NCBI GenBank assembly: GCA_947176345.1
Contig: CAMWQI010000001.1
Coordinates: 65,900 to 129,899 of the forward strand
Length of the DNA stretch: 64,000 bases
Reading direction: 5' to 3'
Source: an uncultured Ruminococcus sp.
GTDB taxonomy: Bacteria > Bacillota > Clostridia > Oscillospirales > Ruminococcaceae
The translations under genes and the position numbers were made by a program. The notes under the pieces are model-generated. The model was not told the DNA's origin. It saw nothing but the letters and a program-made list of their open reading frames with translations, and did not search any database. Positions 601-17,686 of this stretch are shown here, one piece after another. Positions within the stretch are counted from its first letter, which is position 1; every line of letters starts with the position of its first letter.

Positions 601-3600
601 ATGCACAAGAAACTTTCAAGAGCAATTGCCGGAAGTCTTATGTCTGCTGCTATGCTCGCTACAGCTCTTACCGGAGTGGTTGCTCCTATAACCGCTTCAG
701 CTGGTCAGGTGCTTGGCGAAACAACTTTTGAGCATAAGGCACTTCCTTGGCATACTTGCGAATCAAGTCCTGCAAAACAGGATTTTGAAATTAAAGACGG
801 TGAAGTTCACATTACAGTTCTCACTGCAATTGGTGCTGACAATGAAAAGTGGGACCTTCAGTTCAGACACAGAAATCTTAACTTTAAAGCCGGTCACACA
901 TATAAAGTAAGTTTTAAGGCAAAGGCAAAAAGAAATGGTATGCAGCTTTGCTCAAAAATCGGTGACATTTCAGGTGACAACGAATACTTTGTTGTTAATG
1001 GTGACCAGGGTACTATGCAGATGGGTCCGCACATGGGCGGTCAGTGGGGTAATGCAGCTAAGCTGACTACTTCATATCAGACTTATGCGGGTACATTTAC
1101 TCCTACTCAGGACCTTGAGGGTGTTGAATGGTCTTTCCATTACGCAAAGGGTACTAAGTATGAGGGCAACGCTCAGGACGGCGACGAAATCTGGTTTGAT
1201 GAGATGTCAATTGAGTGTGAAACTTGCAACGACTGCGATGCTGACCCGAATAACTCCTATGGTGCTGTAAACCGTGACTATAGTACAGCTGTTGACAGCA
1301 ATTTGGGTACTTTCGGTGCTACTAAAAACTTCATTTCTGTAAACCAGATTGGTTACTATCCGAATCTTAAAAAGGTTGCAACTCTCGGTGATAACGGCGG
1401 TGACATTCTTTACGGTGCTACAAAGATTAGTCTCAGCGGTTCTTATGACTTCGAGCTTGTTGATGCAAATTCTGGTGATGTTGTATACACTGGTAAGACT
1501 TCTGAGCCTAAGGCTGATAAGGATTCCGGTGATAAAGTCTGCACAATTGACTTTAGCGAATACGATAAACCCGGCAGATACTATCTCCAGATTAAGGGAC
1601 AGGACTGGAGGTCATTCGAGTTCAATATCGGTGACAATATTTACTATGATGAGTCCCACAATCTCCTTACTAATGCTATGAACTACTTCTATCAGAACCG
1701 TTCAGGTATTGATATTGAAGACAAGTACTGTACATCAGGCGGTTCAGACGGCAAGGGTACAGGAATGGGTCACCAGGGTGGTCACAAGACTGATACAGCT
1801 ACAATTCAGAAAATCTGGAAGAACGAATATTCTTCTAAGGAAGAAGCAACTTCAACATACAAGTCAGGTACTCTTACCGCAAATGGCGGTTGGTACGATG
1901 CCGGTGACCACGGTAAGTACGTTGTAAACGGCGGTATCTCTATTTGGACTCTCCAGAATATGTATGAAAGAGCTATTCAGACAGAAGAAGGTAAGGCTAA
2001 GTTTGCTGACGGTTCAGGTACTGTTGTAGTTCCTGAAGCAGGAAATAAAGTTCCTGACGTTCTCGACGAAGCTGCTGTAGAACTTGACTGGATTGCACAG
2101 ATGAAAGTTACTTCCAGCGACAGCGCATGGGGTAAATATGAGGGTCTTTACTATCACAAACTTCATGACCATAAGTGGACTGGTCTTGCTACAAAACCGT
2201 GGGATTACGAAGGCGATACACTTTCAGACGGTTCAAAGGGCTGGGGTACAGTTCGTATTGTAAAGCCTCCGACGTTCGCTGCTACACTTAACTATGCTGC
2301 TTGTGCTGCACAGGCTGCAAGACTTTGGGAACCTTACGATTCTGCAAAGGCTAAGCAGTATCTCGAAAGTGCTAAGGAAGCATTTGAGGCATATCAGAAG
2401 TACTGGTATCCTTATGATGATACAAAGACTACCCACCCGACTTTGAAATGTGAGTGTCCACAGGAAGAACTCAACGAAAATTCACTCTATGCACCTATGT
2501 GGCACGCAAAGGGCGGTGGTCCTTACGGTGACGACAACGTTCTTGATGATGCTTACTGGGCAGCTTGCGAAATCTTCGTATCTGCTTCAAAGATGGGCGA
2601 CACTGCTGCTGCTTCTACTTACAAGAAGATTATCGACGAATCTGATTATGCTTACAATGTAAGCACAAGAATGGTAGGCGGTGAGAACAAGGACGGTTCT
2701 TTCACTTCATTTAACTGGGGCAACACTGCTTCTGCTGGTTCACTTACACTTGCTCTCAACAGCGACCTCCTCTCAGACAGCGAAAACAGCAAAATCAAGG
2801 AAACAATTTTAGCTGCTGCTGACGAATACATGAAGTGCGAAAGCGAACAGGGTTATGGTATTCCATACAAGTATGACGGTCCTGACTACAATGACCCGAA
2901 CAACCTTGACCCATCTGTTATGATTAACGGTTATGAGTGGGGTTCAAACTCAATGGTTATCAATAACTGTATCGTTATGGCTTATGCTTACGACCTTACA
3001 AAGGATATTAATTACATGAACGGTGTTGCTACAGGTCTTGACTACCTCTTCGGACGCAATCCGCTTTCATACTCCTATGTAACAGGTTACGGTACATACA
3101 AGGAACATAATCCTCACCACAGATACTGGTCTTACGAGCTTGACAAGTCATTGCCTATGGCTCCTGATGGTATTCTTTCAGGTGGTCCTAATGCAGGTCT
3201 TCAGGACCCATATGTACGTGCTTTAGGTTTCGTTCCTGGCAATACAGCAAATCCATCACAGAGATGCTTTGTTGACTCTATCGAAGCTTGGTCTACAAAT
3301 GAGGTTACAATTAACTGGAACTCTCCTCTTGCTTGGATTGCTTCATTCATGCAGGATGAAGCTGCTAAGGCAGACCCTAATAACAAGGGAGAGGATAACA
3401 CTACAAAGCCTACAACTTCTAATGAGGGTGGCGACAAGGATAAGATTCTTTGGGGTGACGCTAACGTTGACAATGAAGTAAACGTTTCTGACGCTGTTCT
3501 TATCATGCAGACACTTTCTAACCCTGATGAATATCAGCTTTCAGCACAGGGCAGACTCAATGCTGACGTTGTTGACAACGGTAGTGGTGTAACTGCTATG

Positions 3601-3690
3601 GATGCACTTGCTATTCAGTGTATCGGTATCAACCTTATCACACAGCCTGATTTCCCGACAACAACTGAAGTAATCACATCGTTCGGTTGA
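601..3690 (+). CDS. Secreted GH9 endoglucanase: signal peptide, CBM4-like, Ig-like, GH9 catalytic, dockerin
   Basis: Signal peptide MHKKLSRAIAGSLMSAAMLATALTG; GH9 motifs GGWYDAGDHGKYV, HHRYW, DSIEAWSTNEVTINWNSPLAW; C-terminal dockerin. SD GGGAGG favours start at 601 rather than 547. Confidence 0.93.
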   Translation: MHKKLSRAIAGSLMSAAMLATALTGVVAPITASAGQVLGETTFEHKALPWHTCESSPAKQDFEIKDGEVHITVLTAIGADNEKWDLQFRHRNLNFKAGHTYKVSFKAKAKRNGMQLCSKIGDISGDNEYFVVNGDQGTMQMGPHMGGQWGNAAKLTTSYQTYAGTFTPTQDLEGVEWSFHYAKGTKYEGNAQDGDEIWFDEMSIECETCNDCDADPNNSYGAVNRDYSTAVDSNLGTFGATKNFISVNQIGYYPNLKKVATLGDNGGDILYGATKISLSGSYDFELVDANSGDVVYTGKTSEPKADKDSGDKVCTIDFSEYDKPGRYYLQIKGQDWRSFEFNIGDNIYYDESHNLLTNAMNYFYQNRSGIDIEDKYCTSGGSDGKGTGMGHQGGHKTDTATIQKIWKNEYSSKEEATSTYKSGTLTANGGWYDAGDHGKYVVNGGISIWTLQNMYERAIQTEEGKAKFADGSGTVVVPEAGNKVPDVLDEAAVELDWIAQMKVTSSDSAWGKYEGLYYHKLHDHKWTGLATKPWDYEGDTLSDGSKGWGTVRIVKPPTFAATLNYAACAAQAARLWEPYDSAKAKQYLESAKEAFEAYQKYWYPYDDTKTTHPTLKCECPQEELNENSLYAPMWHAKGGGPYGDDNVLDDAYWAACEIFVSASKMGDTAAASTYKKIIDESDYAYNVSTRMVGGENKDGSFTSFNWGNTASAGSLTLALNSDLLSDSENSKIKETILAAADEYMKCESEQGYGIPYKYDGPDYNDPNNLDPSVMINGYEWGSNSMVINNCIVMAYAYDLTKDINYMNGVATGLDYLFGRNPLSYSYVTGYGTYKEHNPHHRYWSYELDKSLPMAPDGILSGGPNAGLQDPYVRALGFVPGNTANPSQRCFVDSIEAWSTNEVTINWNSPLAWIASFMQDEAAKADPNNKGEDNTTKPTTSNEGGDKDKILWGDANVDNEVNVSDAVLIMQTLSNPDEYQLSAQGRLNADVVDNGSGVTAMDALAIQCIGINLITQPDFPTTTEVITSFG

Positions 3691-3707
3691 TAAGTAAAAA
3701 ATATAAA

Positions 3708-3733
3708 GGGGACACTCCGGTGTCCTCTTTTTT
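3708..3733 (+). terminator. Intrinsic terminator after GH9
   Basis: GGGGACACtccgGTGTCCTCTTTTTT. Confidence 0.8.
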
Positions 3734-3778
3734 GCGTTTCGAGTGTGACAAATATAACTGCTGGTTATTTTATGGCAT

Positions 3779-3807
3779 AAAAAAAGACAGTCCCGAAAGA
3801 CTGTCTT
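3779..3807 (-). terminator. Intrinsic terminator after rplA
   Basis: Minus strand AAAGACAGTCtttcgGGACTGTCTTTTTT. Confidence 0.8.
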
Positions 3808-3824
3808 TAAAGTTTTTATTTTAA

Positions 3825-4520
3825 TCAGACACCATATTTAGTGGTTGCAACCGGTACACCAGGACCCATTGTTGATGCTACTGTACATGATTTAAGGTAA
3901 GTACCCTTTGCAGCAGCCGGCTTAGCCTTAACAATAGCTTCCATAAGAACATTGAAGTTTTCTTCAAGCTTTGCAGCACCGAATGAAGCCTTACCGATAG
4001 GGCAGTGAATGATATTTGTCTTGTCAAGACGGTATTCAATCTTACCAGCCTTAGCCTCTGTTACAGCCTTTGCAACATCAGGTGTTACAGTACCAGCCTT
4101 TGGGTTAGGCATGAGACCACGAGGACCAAGAATTTTACCAAGACGACCAACAAGACCCATCATGTCAGGTGAAGCAACAACAACGTCGAAATCCATCCAG
4201 TTTTCTTTCTGGATTTTTTCAACCATATCCATACCGCCTACATAATCAGCACCGGCAGCCTGAGCAGCCTCATACTTGTCCTCCTTGCAGAAAACAAGTA
4301 CTCTAACGTTCTTACCTGTACCGTTAGGGAGAACAACAGCACCTCTTACCTGCTGGTCAGCGTGTCTGGAGTCAACGCCGAGACGGATATGTGCCTCAAT
4401 AGTTTCATCAAACTTAGCCTTTGCATTCTGGCATACTAAGTCAAGAGCCTCTGTGGACTCATAAAGCTTTGCATAATCGACAGTCTTTGCACTGTCAACA
4501 TATCTTTTGCCGTGTTTCAT
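3825..4520 (-). CDS. rplA: 50S ribosomal protein L1
   Basis: [15 protein letters not shown]..., [30 protein letters not shown]. Confidence 0.97.
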
Positions 4521-6676: not shown

Positions 6677-9600
6677 ATGAAATCTAAGTTTTTCAGAAAG
6701 CGTGCCACAGCTATTGCTGTTGCTGTAATGTCACTGTCATGTATGGCATCAGTAGTAAACAGTCCGGCTTATATGCCTACAGCTACAACAACTATCACAG
6801 CATTTGCTGCTGACAGCGTAAACATCACAAGTTCTGTAGGATATGCAGAAGGTATGTATGCTACATGGTCATCTGTTTCAGGTGCTGAGGGTTACAACGT
6901 TTATGTTGACGGTGTTCAGATTGATTCAATGCTCATCAGACAGTATTCAAGCTACATGAGAGCTGATGCAGTAGGTCTTAAAGCAGGAAGTCACACAATG
7001 AAAGTCGTTCCTGTTATCAGCGGTAAGGAAGATACTTCAAAGGCTGCTGAAACAAAGGCTGATGTTTATGCACACGACCGTTCAGGTTTCGGCTTTGTAA
7101 ATGGCACATCTTCCGGTGCGTACAATGAAGACGGTACACTTAAATCGGACGCTGTTGTTATTTACGTTACAAACGCTACTAAAGATTCTGTAAGCGTTAC
7201 ACTTCCCGACAAAAAGGGTACTGCAACAAATCTTACAGGTATTCAGAATATTATAAATAATCTCAAGAGCAATAAGTCTGCACCGCCTGTAGCAATTAGA
7301 TTTATAGGAAACATTGAAGACCCTGAAGGTATGCCAAATGGAGACCTTTATGTAGACGCTGTATTATGCGGTCTTACAATTGAGGGTGTCGGCAATGATG
7401 CTACTTTTAACGGCTTTGGTCTTGTTATGAAAAACAGTTCAAACGTTGAAGTAAGAAATATTGGCTTTATGAACTGCGACAGCGATGAGGGTGACGACTG
7501 TGGACTTCAGCAGAAAAATGACCACGTATGGGTTCATAACTGTGACTTCTTCTATGGTCAGGCAGGTTCAGACAAAGACCAGGTAAAAGGCGATGGTGCT
7601 TTAGATACAAAGACTTCAACATATATTACTCATTCATACAATCATTTTTGGGATAACGGAAAGTGTAATCTTCAGGGTATGAAGTCAGAATCCGAAGATA
7701 ACTTTGTTACATACCATCACAACTGGTACGACCATTCCGATTCACGTCACCCAAGAATAAGAACCTGTACAGTACACAGCTACAACAACTACTTTGACGG
7801 CAACGCAAAGTATGGTATAGGCGTTACACTTGGTGCATCTTGTTTCTCTGAAAATAACTATTTCAGAAACTGCAAATATCCTATGCTCATCTCTATGCAG
7901 GGTTCAGATGTTGCAGGCAGTAATGAGCCTACATTCTCCAGCGAAAACGGCGGTATTATAAAGTCTTATGGTAATATTGTTGACGGCGGTAAAGGCTATG
8001 TTAAATATCAGGACGACAATACAGAATTTGACGCATACGAAGCATCTTCAAGAGATGAAAAAGTTCCGTCAAGCATAACGTGTAAAAAAGGCGGTACAGC
8101 TTACAACAACTTTGATACCGATTCAAGTATGTATAGCTATAACGTTGATAAGGCTGAAGATGTTCCGTCAGTTGTAACTTCAAAGGCTGGTCGTGTAGAC
8201 GGCGGTGACTTCCAGTGGAAGTTTGACAATTCAGTTGACGATGAAAGCTATGACGTAAATCAGGCACTTAAAGATGCAGTTGTTTCTTATAAGGACTCAA
8301 TTGTTGCTATCGGTAGTGGATTTACAAATACCAGCACAACAACTCCGGAACAGACTACTACAAAATCATCAGGTACACAAAATACAACAACTACAACAAC
8401 AAAAGCTCCCACAACATCTACACCGGCTACAACTCCGGCTGGAATAAAGGTTGAGTATTCAGGCGGTTGGAATGAAATGGCATATATGGGCATTTCAGGC
8501 ATAAAGGATGCTGATGTTACAGGTGTATCATATTCAGGTGCATCAAGTGGTTCACTTAAAGGCGAAGACCTTGAATATCTTGTAAGAGATGTTGACGGCG
8601 GTGTACGTGTTGACCTCCTTGGACTTAAAGCAGGTACTTATACAATTACAGTTACTACTTCAAAGGGCGAAATCAAGCAGAGCGGTATTGTAGTAGGTCA
8701 GCAGGATAGGTCAGGTTATGCACATTATAACTATTCTGACGGTGTAGGTGCATACAACGACAACGGCGAACTTAAAGCAAATGCAAAAATTATTTATGTT
8801 ACAGAAGAAAATAAAAACACAGTTTCCGTTACATCTAAGGACGGCACAACTGTTAAAGGTATAGGAAATATCCTTAACTCCGTTGCACAAGACGTTGGTG
8901 GTGGTAAGAACGCTAACGGCGGTACAGCTAACACCAATCAGGATATTATAAAGAAACTTGCTAAGGACGGCACACCACTTGTTATCAGAATTGTAGGAAA
9001 CGTTACAGCTCCGGAGGGCGTAACAGCATTTAACTCCGTAGATATGGGCGGTTCTAAGGGTGATAACGGCTATATGGCAAGAATGCGTTCAGGTAAGGAC
9101 GTTACAATTGAGGGTGTTGGTGCAGACGCTACAATCAACGGCTGGGGCATTCACTTCATGTGCGAATCTTCTGCTCCTGAACTGGGCAAGAGCTTTGAAG
9201 TAAGAAATATCGCATTCAGAAACGTTCCTGAAGATTGTATCGGTATGGAAGGCGTACAGGAAGGCTTAGGAAGCAGTGCAAAGATTACAGCTTCCGTTGA
9301 AAGATGCTGGATTCATAACTGTGAGTTCTACGTTCCAAAGATAGCTAATCCGGCTGAATCTGATAAGTCAGAGGGCGACGGTGCTTGCGACTTCAAGCGT
9401 GGACAGTATTTCACAAACAGCTACTGCTACTATGAGGGCTACCACAAGACAAACCTTGTCGGCTCATCTGATACAAGTCTCCAGTATAATATCTCATTCC
9501 ACCACAACTACTGGAAGAACTGCGAATCAAGAGGACCTCTTGCACGTCAGGCTAATATTCATATGTACAATAACGTATTTGACGGTCAGTCAAGCTACTG

Positions 9601-10651
9601 TGCAAGCGTAAGAGCAAACTCTTATATCTTCTCCGAATACAACGCTTATGTAAACCAATGTAAAGACCCTGTACTTGATGCTGGTTCAGGCGGTGTATTC
9701 AAGAGTTACAACGACGCACGTATAAGCCTTAAAAAGAACGCTAAATATCAGGGCGTAGACGTTTCAAGCAGAAGCGAAAAGGTAGCTAACAACAACAAAT
9801 ACTCTGATTTTGATACAAATTCTTCACTTTCATATATTCCGTCCGGAAATTACAGTCTCATAGAGGCTACAGGTGAAGCACTTTATACAGCACTTAACGC
9901 TGAGTTTGAGGCAAAGGGCGGTTGCATGGACAATACAAAAATCAGCAGTAGCAGTGGTACAGGTACATCACAGACAACAGCTTCTACTACAGCAAAGCCC
10001 GCTGGTACAACAACAACTACTGCTAATGGTGGCGGTACAGTTGTTGCTGGTGGATATGTTCATGACTTTACTGCTAACGGCACAAAGAGTGATTTCTATA
10101 CAATTACTGGTAATCTTTCTACATCTAAGGGAACTGTAAATTACAATGGTCTTACACTCAAACAGTGTCTCAAGATGGAAAGTGCAACAAATATTACATT
10201 CAATGCACCATCTGCCGGCAAGATTACACTTGTATTCGTTGAACCGTCTGCAACTATAAAGATTGATGGAACTAAATATACATCGTCAGGCGACGGCATA
10301 ATAACAGTTGATTTGAAAGCCGGTTCACATACAATTACTAAGGCTGATACTGCTAATCTTTTCTACATGGTTTATGGTGCAGAAGGTGGAAATTCCGGAA
10401 CAACAACTACACAGCCTAACACTACAGATATACTCTATGGTGACGCAAACTGTGACAACAGTACAAACGTTTCAGATGCTGTATTTATAATGCAGTGTCT
10501 CTCAAATCCTGATGAATATAAGTTTACTGAACAGGGTAAATTAAATGCCGATGTCTGCAATGTAGGTGATGGTGTAACCGCTATGGACGCACTTTCAATT
10601 CAGAAAATCGGTATAGGCTTACTTGATAAGCTTCCGGAATCTTATAGCTAA
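6677..10651 (+). CDS. Multimodular secreted pectate lyase: two PL1-like catalytic modules, Thr-rich linkers, putative C-terminal CBM, dockerin
   Basis: Two copies of the lyase pattern (TIEGVGxDAT.NG.G, EVRNI.F.NC, DGALD/DGACDFK, HHNWYDHSDSRHPRIR / HHNYWKNCESRGPLARQANIHMYNN); Thr linkers; dockerin ILYGDANCDNSTNVSDAVFIMQ. Confidence 0.9.
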   Translation: MKSKFFRKRATAIAVAVMSLSCMASVVNSPAYMPTATTTITAFAADSVNITSSVGYAEGMYATWSSVSGAEGYNVYVDGVQIDSMLIRQYSSYMRADAVGLKAGSHTMKVVPVISGKEDTSKAAETKADVYAHDRSGFGFVNGTSSGAYNEDGTLKSDAVVIYVTNATKDSVSVTLPDKKGTATNLTGIQNIINNLKSNKSAPPVAIRFIGNIEDPEGMPNGDLYVDAVLCGLTIEGVGNDATFNGFGLVMKNSSNVEVRNIGFMNCDSDEGDDCGLQQKNDHVWVHNCDFFYGQAGSDKDQVKGDGALDTKTSTYITHSYNHFWDNGKCNLQGMKSESEDNFVTYHHNWYDHSDSRHPRIRTCTVHSYNNYFDGNAKYGIGVTLGASCFSENNYFRNCKYPMLISMQGSDVAGSNEPTFSSENGGIIKSYGNIVDGGKGYVKYQDDNTEFDAYEASSRDEKVPSSITCKKGGTAYNNFDTDSSMYSYNVDKAEDVPSVVTSKAGRVDGGDFQWKFDNSVDDESYDVNQALKDAVVSYKDSIVAIGSGFTNTSTTTPEQTTTKSSGTQNTTTTTTKAPTTSTPATTPAGIKVEYSGGWNEMAYMGISGIKDADVTGVSYSGASSGSLKGEDLEYLVRDVDGGVRVDLLGLKAGTYTITVTTSKGEIKQSGIVVGQQDRSGYAHYNYSDGVGAYNDNGELKANAKIIYVTEENKNTVSVTSKDGTTVKGIGNILNSVAQDVGGGKNANGGTANTNQDIIKKLAKDGTPLVIRIVGNVTAPEGVTAFNSVDMGGSKGDNGYMARMRSGKDVTIEGVGADATINGWGIHFMCESSAPELGKSFEVRNIAFRNVPEDCIGMEGVQEGLGSSAKITASVERCWIHNCEFYVPKIANPAESDKSEGDGACDFKRGQYFTNSYCYYEGYHKTNLVGSSDTSLQYNISFHHNYWKNCESRGPLARQANIHMYNNVFDGQSSYCASVRANSYIFSEYNAYVNQCKDPVLDAGSGGVFKSYNDARISLKKNAKYQGVDVSSRSEKVANNNKYSDFDTNSSLSYIPSGNYSLIEATGEALYTALNAEFEAKGGCMDNTKISSSSGTGTSQTTASTTAKPAGTTTTTANGGGTVVAGGYVHDFTANGTKSDFYTITGNLSTSKGTVNYNGLTLKQCLKMESATNITFNAPSAGKITLVFVEPSATIKIDGTKYTSSGDGIITVDLKAGSHTITKADTANLFYMVYGAEGGNSGTTTTQPNTTDILYGDANCDNSTNVSDAVFIMQCLSNPDEYKFTEQGKLNADVCNVGDGVTAMDALSIQKIGIGLLDKLPESYS

Positions 10652-10855: not shown

Positions 10856-12670
10856 TTATAATGTAACAGGTAAATCACTGAGAGAATATACATGTATGCT
10901 AATTTGCTGTATAACTAATGCATCCATAGCGGTTACGCCGTCGCCTCTATTGCAAACATCAGCAGCATCTTTCTGTTCGGCAGACATCTTATATTCGTTA
11001 GGATTTGAGAGACACTGCATTATAAATACAGCATCTGAAACATTTGTATTGTTGTCACTGTTTGAGTCACCATAAGTTACTTTGTTGGGGTCTGTAGGTG
11101 TTTCAGGGGATTGTGGTCTTGTACCGCCTAAACCAAGTGAGCGACATTCCTTGCAGACAAAAGCAATCGGAGTATTTATGCCTTCATTTTCATTGATGTA
11201 TTTTCCGCAAGTATCACATTCACGTGATGCAGTAGTAGTTGTTGTGGTTGTTGTTTCAGTAGTAGTTGCATTTTCTGTTGTGAAATATGGTGGAATTGTT
11301 CCGCCCGCACCATGTGAACGACAGTCTGAACATACAAAAAGTCCAAGAGGAGTAATTACACCATCGGATTCAGCGATATATGTTCCGCAGATTTTGCATT
11401 CACGGAGTGCGGTAGTTGTGGCTGGATAATCAACAGAAGTCATTATAGTAGCTGTAGTAGTTGCTGTTACAGTTTCTGTCTGGAAAGGAGGTCTTGTACC
11501 GCCAATACCTAGTGAACGGCAGTTTGAACATAAAAACATTCCAAGCGGAGTTGTTATACCGGCGTTAGCGTTTATCAGTGTACCGCAATGGTCACAAGCC
11601 TTACACTCTATAATAGTATTGGTGGTTGTAGTAGTCGTTATTATTGGTGGTGTTGTATGTGTACATGTATCTGTCATTACGGGCGGAGTATTGAATGAGT
11701 CATAGCCGTCTTCATATAGATACAGAACAAAACTTGGATTAGATGAGTTTGCACCTACATAATTTTCCACAAACGGACAATATGTGTATTTGTTATATTT
11801 TTCGGGAAGTTTATCAACTACAAACTGAACAGTAGAAAAGTGACTGCCACCAGGTATTGTGAAATCAAAATCTACCTTGTCTTCCTTTCCAGTGGTAACC
11901 CATTCAACGCAGTTACCAAGGTTGCCGTTGCTGTCCCATTCGCTGAGTGATACTTCTGCACCCTCAACGTATTCTCCGGTGTTGCCGTCAATCAGGAGAC
12001 ACGAAGCCTGAACAGTTCCTTTATATTCCTTGTCAAGAGATATTGTCAAGTCCGTGTGTGGCTGGTGTTCGTTACCGTAATAATTGGCATAATACCAGTC
12101 CATAGCATTATCAATGATAAAATCATCTACAATAGTTGTACCGTTGAGATAGGAATAACCCTCCGGCATATCTTCAAGCACTGCTGTAAGTGTAATAGTT
12201 GATGATAAATTTGTAAAAAGATGGACAATATCTATGGAATAGCTTTCAGATTCGGAAGTGTCCCATGTTCCGTAATCACGTGTTATAACATTGCTTTGCA
12301 GGTCTTGTGTTTCCACAAAATGTACTTTTACCCCGTCGACGTGTTCATTTGTCTTGCTGTCAACGACTTTGACATTTACGTCATAAGTTCTTCTGAGCGG
12401 AAATTCTGTCGGCTGAACTTCAATTCCCGGAACGGTTGTGCAGGTGTATACTCTTTCGGGAATGGTTGCTGTGGTTGATGCCGGCATCATCTCATTGTCA
12501 AGGACTGCCGGTGCGTTTGAATAGGGCATGAGTTCTTGTGTGATGATTCTGTCGGGAATGGTCTGGACGTGTTCATGCTCTGATGTTTCAGCGTATGTCG
12601 CAAGCGGACTTACAGTCGAAACCATGGTGGCGATTGCTGTCAGGACAGCGGTGGTTGTTTTTTTCAACAT
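10856..12670 (-). CDS. Secreted dockerin protein with two Ig/CnaB-like N-terminal regions and three tandem CxxC...CxxC modules in Thr-rich linkers
   Basis: Signal peptide; ACDHCGTLINANAGITTPLGMFLCSNCRSLGIGGTRPP / CKICGTYIAESDGVITPLGLFVCSDCRSHGAGGTIPP / CDTCGKYINENEGINTPIAFVCKECRSLGLGGTRP; dockerin VTYGDSNSDNNTNVSDAVFIMQ. Confidence 0.85.
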   Translation of the reverse strand: MLKKTTTAVLTAIATMVSTVSPLATYAETSEHEHVQTIPDRIITQELMPYSNAPAVLDNEMMPASTTATIPERVYTCTTVPGIEVQPTEFPLRRTYDVNVKVVDSKTNEHVDGVKVHFVETQDLQSNVITRDYGTWDTSESESYSIDIVHLFTNLSSTITLTAVLEDMPEGYSYLNGTTIVDDFIIDNAMDWYYANYYGNEHQPHTDLTISLDKEYKGTVQASCLLIDGNTGEYVEGAEVSLSEWDSNGNLGNCVEWVTTGKEDKVDFDFTIPGGSHFSTVQFVVDKLPEKYNKYTYCPFVENYVGANSSNPSFVLYLYEDGYDSFNTPPVMTDTCTHTTPPIITTTTTTNTIIECKACDHCGTLINANAGITTPLGMFLCSNCRSLGIGGTRPPFQTETVTATTTATIMTSVDYPATTTALRECKICGTYIAESDGVITPLGLFVCSDCRSHGAGGTIPPYFTTENATTTETTTTTTTTASRECDTCGKYINENEGINTPIAFVCKECRSLGLGGTRPQSPETPTDPNKVTYGDSNSDNNTNVSDAVFIMQCLSNPNEYKMSAEQKDAADVCNRGDGVTAMDALVIQQISIHVYSLSDLPVTL

Positions 12671-14340: not shown

Positions 14341-14748
14341 ATGGACAAAATTATTCAGTTGACAAGAGAATTAGGAAAAGCACTCCAGCAGGACGACAGA
14401 TACATTGCCTATACTCTTGCCAAACAGGTCAATGATGACGACAATGAATTACAGGCGGATATTACAAAATTCGATGAACTCCGTGCCGAAATGCGTACGG
14501 CTATGAGTGGTGATAATCCGGATTTTGACAAAATAAACGCCATTGACAAGGAGACAAAAACACTCTATCAGAAAATCATGAGTAATCCACATATGATGGT
14601 TTTCAATGCCACACAGAAATCACTTGAAGAACTTGTCAGCAACATGAATCAGATTATAACCATGTGTGCAAACGGTCAAGACCCCGAAACGTGCGAAGCC
14701 CCTAAGGGTTGTGCCGGTGACTGTTCCGCTTGCGGAGGCTGTGGCTGA
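14341..14748 (+). CDS. YlbF/YmcA-family regulator with Cys-rich C-terminal tail
   Basis: MDKIIQLTRELGKALQQDDRYIAYTLAKQVNDDD...; tail CANGQDPETCEAPKGCAGDCSACGGCG; between miaB and mutS. Confidence 0.75.
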   Translation: MDKIIQLTRELGKALQQDDRYIAYTLAKQVNDDDNELQADITKFDELRAEMRTAMSGDNPDFDKINAIDKETKTLYQKIMSNPHMMVFNATQKSLEELVSNMNQIITMCANGQDPETCEAPKGCAGDCSACGGCG

Positions 14749-17228
14749 TGAATATTGACAGAAAAAAAGTCACTGCTATGATGAGGCAGTATCTTGAAAT
14801 CAAAGACAAATATCAGGAATGCATATTATTTTTCCGTGTCGGAGATTTCTATGAGATGTTCTTTGACGATGCAATAACAGTCTCAAAGGCTATTGAGCTT
14901 ACCCTTACCGGCAAGGACTGCGGACTTGAAGAACGTGCGCCCATGTGTGGTGTACCTTATCATGCAGTTGACACATATATAAAAAAGCTTGTTGATTTAG
15001 GGTTCAGGGTGGCAGTATGTGAACAACTTACAGACCCGACAGCAAATAAAGATATAGTTGTCCGTGATGTTGTCCGCGTTGTAACTGCCGGTACACTCAC
15101 TGAAACCACCATGCTTGACGACAGCAAAAATAATTATATATGCAGTATTTTTTATGACCAGTTTCATGAAGTATGCTGTATGGCATCAGCAGATATTTCG
15201 ACGGGTGAGGCGTTCCTGAATGTCATGAACGAAAAGAACTTTGAAACGGACGTTATAAATGAACTTTCACGATGTCAACCGGCAGAGATTATATTTCCTG
15301 AAAGTTTTCTTTCATTTAAAAACGTTGCCGATTTTATAAAACTTCGTCTTAAATGTACGGTTACTTTGAGGGACGAAAAATGTTTTTATCCGTCGGGAAA
15401 TCGGCATATTATTGAAGAAGTTTTCAGAAAAACTCCGGAAGAATTGGGAATAAGCAGTGACGGTGCAGACTGTTCAGCGGTATGCGGATTATTTGAATAT
15501 ATAAATGATACACAAAAAACATCTGTTTCAAGGTTCACCACACTGGAAATACTTAACGGAAATGCTTTTATGGGTCTTGACCTTAATGCAAGGCGTAACT
15601 TGGAACTCACTGAAACACTCCGCAACAAAGAACGGAAAGGCTCATTATTATGGGTGCTTGACTCTGCAAAGACTTCTATGGGACGCAGGCTTCTGAAAAA
15701 CTGGATTGAACAACCATTGAAAAGTCCGGCAAGGATTATTGAACGTCTTGACACTGTGGATGCACTCCGACGGAAAAGCGTTGTACTCTATGAGCTACAG
15801 AATTTATTGACAAAAGTCTATGACCTTGAACGCCTTATGACCAAAGTCATGTATAAAAGAGCAAATCCCCGTGACCTCAAGGCTCTTTCGGCTACTGCCA
15901 TTCAGTTACCGTTTATAAAAAAGGAACTTGAAAAACTTGATAATTCAAAACTGCTTGCAAAATATAATAATGATATTTCCGGACTTGATGAAATTGTAAA
16001 GCTTGTCGAAAAAGCCATAACCGACGAACCGCCTGTGGCTGTCAAGGACGGTGGTGTTATAAAAGACGGTTTTAACAGTGAACTTGATAACCTTAGACAT
16101 ATAATGAATCACGGACAGGAAATTATTGATGATATATTACAGAATGAACGCGCAAGAACGGGCATTAAAAACCTGAAAATAGGATTTAATAAGGTATTCG
16201 GCTACTATTTGGAAGTGACACGCTCCTATTATGAATTTATTCCGCCGGAATGGACACGCAAACAAACTCTTGCAAATGCGGAGCGTTTTATAACAGAGGA
16301 ACTCAAAAACGCTGAAAATTCAATATTAGGTGCAAAGGACAAGGCTCTTTCACTGGAGGCTGATATTTTCAATGAAGTACGTGATTATCTTTCTACCATG
16401 CTTGAAAAAGTCCAAAGAACAGCCACAGCGGTAGCCTCCGTGGACGTGCTGTGTTCATTTGCGGACGTTGCTATAAGAAATCTATATGTAAAGCCGGAAA
16501 TTTCCCTTGATGGTTCAATTGACATAAAAGCCGGCAGACACCCTGTTGTTGAGTTGATGCTTGAAGATGAGATGTTCATTCCGAATGATATTTACATGGA
16601 TAACAAAAATAACAGAATGTCCATTATTACAGGACCTAATATGTCCGGTAAATCCACATATATGAGACAAACAGCATTAATAGTACTTATGGCACAGATA
16701 GGTTCATTTGTACCGGCAAATTCCGCTAAAATATCCATAGTGGATAAGATTTTCACAAGGATAGGTGCATCAGATGACCTTACAGCCGGACAAAGTACAT
16801 TCATGGTTGAAATGAGTGAAGTTGCCGATATACTGAAAAATGCCACTCCGGATAGTTTTGTTATTCTTGATGAAGTGGGCAGAGGAACATCTACTTATGA
16901 CGGAGTAAGCATAGCCCGTGCAGTTGCTGAACATATATGTACATCAAAAAAATTAGGCTGTAAAACGCTTTTTGCTACTCACTATCACGAACTTATCAGC
17001 CTTGAAAACGAAGTTGACGGCGTAAACAACTACAGCATAGCTGTAAATAAGCGTGGCGGTACAATACGCTTTTTAAGAAAAATAGTCCGTGGCGGTGTTG
17101 ACGAAAGTTACGGTGTGGACGTTGCGAAACTTGCTGGACTGCCCACAAAAGTAATTAATCGTGCAAAAGAACTCCTCAATGAAATGGAAGCGAAGTGGGC
17201 AGAGGAACATCTACTTATGACGGAGTAA
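14748..17228 (+). CDS. mutS: DNA mismatch repair protein MutS, C-terminally truncated by a frameshifting tandem duplication
   Basis: [58 protein letters not shown]; ends in out-of-frame [12 protein letters not shown]; start at ATGA overlap with upstream gene. Confidence 0.9.
16872..17191 (+). repeat. Copy 1 of 320-bp exact tandem direct repeat in mutS
   Basis: GAAGTGGGCAGAGGAACATC...GAAATGGAAGC identical by eye to copy 2; offset 320. Confidence 0.97.
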
Positions 17229-17511
17229 GCATAGCCCGTGCAGTTGCTGAACATATATGTACATCAAAAAAATTAGGCTGTAAAACGCTTTTTGCTACTC
17301 ACTATCACGAACTTATCAGCCTTGAAAACGAAGTTGACGGCGTAAACAACTACAGCATAGCTGTAAATAAGCGTGGCGGTACAATACGCTTTTTAAGAAA
17401 AATAGTCCGTGGCGGTGTTGACGAAAGTTACGGTGTGGACGTTGCGAAACTTGCTGGACTGCCCACAAAAGTAATTAATCGTGCAAAAGAACTCCTCAAT
17501 GAAATGGAAGC
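17192..17511 (+). repeat. Copy 2 of 320-bp exact tandem direct repeat in mutS
   Basis: Same sequence as 16872-17191. Confidence 0.97.
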
Positions 17512-17686
17512 AGATAAAAGTACACATATAATAAGTCCTCACGGAACAGAAGAGGGTCAGATAGATTTTGAGACCATAAACCGTCAGAAAATATTTGACA
17601 TACTTGAAAAAACCAGTATTGACGAATTATCAGACAATGAATGCAGAATGTTACTTAATGATTTGCTTGAAATTATAAAGGAATAA
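17195..17686 (+). pseudogene. mutS: Detached native C-terminal part of mutS downstream of the duplication
   Basis: [20 protein letters not shown]...[26 protein letters not shown]...LEIIKE*; removing 320 bp gives a continuous frame 14748-17686 of 873 codons including stop. Confidence 0.9.

Follow-up and report, generated by a model that had tools for sequence, protein, structure and literature searches.

Introduction

Zinc-finger-like modules built on four cysteines are normally located inside cells. The C4 zinc-binding domain of ClpX (PF06689), which dimerises, is the N-terminal part of a cytosolic unfoldase, and the LIM domain (PF00412) deploys eight ligands to hold two zinc sites. The C4 zinc finger is thus an old and broad class; the family described below, its predicted export and its cellulosomal placement are absent from Pfam, NCBIfam and the literature searched. 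In that literature, 'dockerin' and 'zinc ribbon' occurred together in no paper, papers on cellulosomes, dockerins or CXXC motifs were unrelated to the module, and the main text of the FD-1 papers makes no mention of one. The 'suspected new CBM' of EndA (PMC2721979) could not be tied to the four-cysteine module.

Gene and Domain Architecture

The gene lies in a window of 64,000 nucleotides from an uncultured, gut-type Ruminococcus sp., and is read from the minus strand as an open reading frame encoding 604 residues, with an ATG start (Table 1), the plus strand of the same interval being full of stops. The first-pass annotation had listed this frame without naming its strand, and had described a dockerin protein with three CxxC modules, an observation hereby confirmed. 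The N-terminus (MLKK...ATYA/ET) is signal-like when read by eye, combining a lysine-rich start, a hydrophobic stretch and an A-x-A-like site, and is kept across the 12 orthologues which, together with the window protein, made up the alignment of 13 sequences.

Table 1. Features of the predicted exported dockerin protein and its gene; positions are those of the window.
Feature	Residues	Position	Strand	Basis
Whole gene, predicted exported dockerin protein (P0001)	604 in all	10856..12670	(-)	ORF and translation
Putative signal peptide (MLKK...PLATYA)	1-27	12590..12670	(-)	By eye
CnaB-like beta domain 1	92-212	12035..12397	(-)	AF2 and Foldseek
CnaB-like beta domain 2	213-320	11711..12034	(-)	AF2 and Foldseek
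Thr-rich linker preceding module 1	328-355	11606..11689	(-)	Translation
Four-Cys module 1	359-396	11483..11596	(-)	Profile match, E 3.1e-20
Four-Cys module 2	425-462	11285..11398	(-)	Profile match, E 8.8e-20
Four-Cys module 3	485-521	11108..11218	(-)	Profile match, E 3.4e-19
Dockerin	533-588	10907..11074	(-)	PF00404

The two Ig/CnaB-like stretches suspected at first pass were borne out by the predicted fold. No Pfam match was returned for residues 92-320; the AF2 model of this region reached a pLDDT of about 85, and Foldseek retrieved pilins and CnaB domains (4oq1, E 7e-9; also CnaB2, 8bdw), AF2 and Foldseek together identifying a CnaB fold. Alignment revealed a D-x2-TGE-x-VEGA-type motif common to both domains. 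The full-length AF2 model was used for this part only, being too weak over the modules and the dockerin.

Cysteine accounts for 20 residues of the protein (3.3%) versus 1.5 and 1.8% in two neighbouring dockerin enzymes, and three C-x2-C-x(14-22)-C-x2-C units were observed where none of 20,000 shuffles of the protein had more than one, a result far above chance; the three repeated modules are genuine. Their proposed consensus stood only in part: the tail GGTRP is confined to modules 1 and 3, that of module 2 being GGTIPP. Module 3, moreover, falls short of the other two by a single residue. The linkers between the modules resemble the Thr-rich linker that precedes them. Module 1 has a fifth cysteine, C356 (window 11603-11605; CKACDHCG), kept in several orthologues (IACKACD/ETCG) and possibly serving as an alternative ligand.

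The C-terminal dockerin, also claimed at first pass, matched PF00404 with E 1.2e-4 and 22.7 bits, 0.2 bit below the gathering score of 22.9; its loops GDSNSDNNTNVSD and DVCNRGDGVTAMD are present, as expected from the pair of Ca-binding repeats that marks a type I dockerin, and the relatives hold dozens of homologous dockerins. A Pfam search found no catalytic domain in the protein, in agreement with the earlier reading.

The order mutS, miaB, dockerin gene, convergent pectate lyase with dockerin is kept in three relatives, the convergent pectate-lyase-like neighbour adjoining the dockerin gene there as it does here. In the window this neighbour (6677-10651, plus strand) codes for a dockerin protein of 1324 residues with two pectate-lyase-like repeats, a family assignment made by eye. 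The window copy of mutS (14730-17686) is broken by an exact direct duplication of 300 bp (16872-17171 = 17192-17491, 100%), probably an assembly artefact; relatives have a single mutS ORF of about 880-905 codons at the corresponding place. A 702-kb contig titled Alistipes senegalensis (Bacteroidetes) carries the same Ruminococcus mutS-miaB-dockerin-pectate lyase locus, and that record therefore looks mislabelled or contaminated.

The aligned orthologues retain the CnaB-like part and the dockerin around a variable middle region, and several have gained a third CnaB-like domain plus an Ig-like domain. Since the middle region holds anything from four copies of the module to none (4, 3, 2, 1 or 0), the module behaves as a cassette; since three orthologues lack it altogether, its function is dispensable in this family, within which its non-cysteine surface is also variable. 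No second module-bearing gene was found in the source genome.

Distribution and Conservation of the Module

A profile built from these copies matched strongly in about 31 of the 125 Ruminococcus genomes searched. Sampling of the order (295 genomes) and of the phylum (399 genomes) brought up no convincing relative that is exported, and because these were samples the limit to the genus is provisional. Matches beyond the genus were weak; on reading they proved to be either chance segments or C4 knuckles of ordinary and apparently cytosolic kinds, among them ClpX-like, MurT-like and LIM-like ones, and none was accepted as a family member. Two out-of-genus curiosities (L099 and L102) were a protein resembling a D-Ala-D-Ala carboxypeptidase, whose sequence contains GYTPLGGYVCATCRASG by chance, and a large protein combining a LIM-like half finger with a transglutaminase-like region. 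Neither Pfam nor NCBIfam held a model scoring above cut-off for the module, whether the whole protein or single modules were searched, and an NCBIfam aMBF1 match (E 1.2e-6, 28 bits against 110) was rejected as similarity of cysteine pattern. The modules constitute a real family that is undescribed in either database.

A search for the repeat in other dockerin proteins, a check proposed at first pass, located it in many from Ruminococcus, GH5 cellulases included. All carriers readable to their end possess a dockerin, one further carrier ORF being cut by a contig end, and the modules always lie within or beside linkers. At least seven architectures were recorded: (a) the family of the window gene; (b) GH5 - linker - module - linker/(Ig-like) - dockerin, in 12 genomes; (c) a module at the mature N-terminus followed by repeats and a dockerin (L113, L114); (d) an N-terminal module (L115/L117); (e) internal modules (L072 and L083/L118); (f) as many as five modules, including a nearly identical pair (L119); and (g) three modules, a Big_3-like domain and a dockerin (L008). 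The module is thus a mobile cassette common to many Ruminococcus dockerin proteins. The L119 protein (1527-3833, minus strand), with its five cysteine modules and two near-identical tandem copies (CDGCGYGAFEYNGQYVGDLFYCYECVE), represents a divergent subtype devoid of the TPLG and GGT features.

Across 32 diverse copies, with identities down to 24%, the only invariant columns were C1, C4, C23 and C26, which place the module in the broad class of C4 zinc fingers with four invariant cysteines in two knuckles. Selection could be gauged in the 12 GH5 carriers, whose catalytic domain matched PF00150 with E about 1e-46. Mean identity was 89% for the module, 82% for the catalytic part and 57% for the dockerin, with corresponding pN/pS values of 0.15, 0.24 and 0.48 from simple Nei-Gojobori counting in which no tree was used; the linkers flanking the module vary freely. 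Of the 125 genus genomes, 123 encode GH5 enzymes related to these, and in the module-free examples among the best 30 orthologues the slot holds only a Thr-rich linker or Ig-like modules. The existence of such close orthologues identifies the module as an accessory insert, and together with its low pN/pS indicates that it is optional for the enzyme, yet constrained where present. A PDB search with a GH5 carrier matched the catalytic domain only, and a plasmid collection returned nothing beyond distant GH5 catalytic matches.

Predicted Fold and Probable Metal Ligation

Prediction of the structure of a single module, another check put forward at first pass, yielded a C4 zinc-finger knuckle. The metal-free AF2 model of module 2 (44 residues, 32 sequences; pLDDT 84, pTM 0.55) comprised a hairpin, a strand and a short helix after the second C-x2-C. 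Its best Foldseek match was 2gvi, with an rmsd of 0.8 A over 33 columns, TMq 0.68 and E 0.23, an E-value that is not significant alone because the module is tiny; RING and PHD fingers came next. Single copies and the profile gave weak Pfam matches to zf-dskA_traR, LIM, Zn_Ribbon_1 and ClpX. PF01258 weakly matched eight of the 32 copies (best E 0.0041) and reached E 0.0056 on module 3, where its 17.1 bits fell below the gathering score of 24.9; PF06689 gave E 0.07 and 13.4 bits versus a gathering score of 27. The best PDB profile match was the muscle LIM protein 2o13 (E 6e-4), and hhalign matched ClpX-type and TraR-type knuckles in pairwise values uncorrected for choice, one LIM-like comparison being left out of account.

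The module resembles C4 knuckles and not rubredoxin, because its second knuckle reads C-x2-C-[RKYH...] and leads into a helix in place of the C-P-x-C-G of rubredoxin; the earlier suggestion of a zinc-ribbon or rubredoxin-like unit accordingly survives in its zinc-finger part only. Assignment of the fold to the C4 zinc-finger knuckles (FmdE-, TraR/DksA-, ClpX- or LIM-type) can be made with good confidence.

The genus is anaerobic. Searches for DsbA, DsbB, VKOR and Thioredoxin_4 found none of them in the source genome or in 19 relatives, control searches being positive, which makes the disulfide or redox chemistry proposed at first pass unlikely. Given the lack of detected thiol-oxidation proteins and the anaerobic life style, the cysteines are most likely to be present as Zn(Cys)4, and the module probably binds zinc.

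Proposed Role and Alternative Explanations

These data point, with somewhat better than even confidence, to modules that are zinc-stabilised, exported mini-domains serving as mobile accessory binding or adaptor units of Ruminococcus dockerin proteins. On this view an exported mini-domain, hitherto undescribed and some 37 residues long, would fold round one Zn2+ by means of the four invariant cysteines, and would have been inserted, in varied copy number, into the Thr-rich linkers of dockerin (cellulosomal) proteins. The 604-residue protein would be attached to a scaffoldin by its dockerin; the CnaB-like domains would form a stalk, and the zinc-stabilised modules strung along their linkers could offer the complex small, rigid surfaces for binding or as adaptors. 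In the GH5 cellulases the module lies between catalytic domain and dockerin, where an accessory binding module is usually found. This position, together with the repetition and the strong constraint, favours a binding or adaptor role over that of a pure spacer, at roughly even odds. A bolder proposal, tentative at best, is that the module is a new zinc-dependent extracellular recognition unit of about 37 residues that would serve Ruminococcus cellulosomes as a swappable binding unit, smaller than any other accessory binding module of these complexes, with its ligand specificity encoded by the TPLG loop and the GGT tail.

The principal alternative, of rather low probability, envisages zinc-stabilised beads that merely space or stiffen the Thr-rich linkers or shield them from proteolysis and have no ligand. 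It would suit modules always embedded in or beside linkers, orthologues with between zero and four copies, and GH5 orthologues that manage without any; nevertheless, conservation of the GH5 module beyond that of the catalytic domain exceeds what a bead would need. Predicted export and the spatial proximity of the cysteine pairs are what would be expected of an extracellular mini-domain stabilised by disulfide bonds between those pairs, an improbable state given a presumably anaerobic organism with none of the four thiol-oxidation proteins sought in it or its relatives, and a C-x2-C knuckle geometry which, like its nearest relatives, is of the metal type.

Similarity to ClpX raises the question of a dimerising module that cross-links docked proteins, with the repeats supplying avidity; the profile match to ClpX-type knuckles (hhalign probability 95%) and a weak match to 2ds7 accord with this, but other zinc fingers resemble the module about as closely as ClpX does, and dimerisation is considered more improbable still. 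Least likely of all is metal scavenging, iron binding or a redox function akin to rubredoxin-like electron transfer on the complex: four cysteine ligands in two C-x2-C pairs would permit it, but the helix-bound second knuckle has no CPxCG, the RUBY_RBDX model of Pfam matched just two of 32 copies at E 0.13, and the carriers show no redox partner domain. The preferred reading is that of a zinc-stabilised module, probably a binding or adaptor unit.

The occurrence of one strongly conserved, apparently exported C4 module in both non-catalytic dockerin proteins and a cellulase provides a testable family for part of the uncharacterised set, and prompts one to ask by what means an extracellular complex acquires or retains its zinc.

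Comparison with Known Systems

Residues 92-320 share the fold of the CnaB and pilin stalk domains; by eye, however, the usual position of the isopeptide lysine in the alignment is apparently occupied by V or A in this protein family. The module has the pattern and spacing C-x2-CG ... G-x-[FY]-[IV]-C-x2-C in common with the ClpX domain and differs from it in setting, and its four conserved cysteines would serve one zinc site, unlike the two of LIM. The FmdE-type protein 2gvi and PF01258 likewise have C-x2-CG...C-x2-C and a hairpin followed by a helix, but the module differs from the FmdE and zf-dskA_traR fingers in being dockerin-borne and, by prediction, exported, and in possessing a TPLG loop and a G-x-GGT tail. 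With the CBMs of the R. flavefaciens cellulosome (CBM75-80 type) the GH5 module shares its site between catalytic domain and dockerin, a likeness of position only, since the module is much smaller than usual CBMs and no similarity to them was found.
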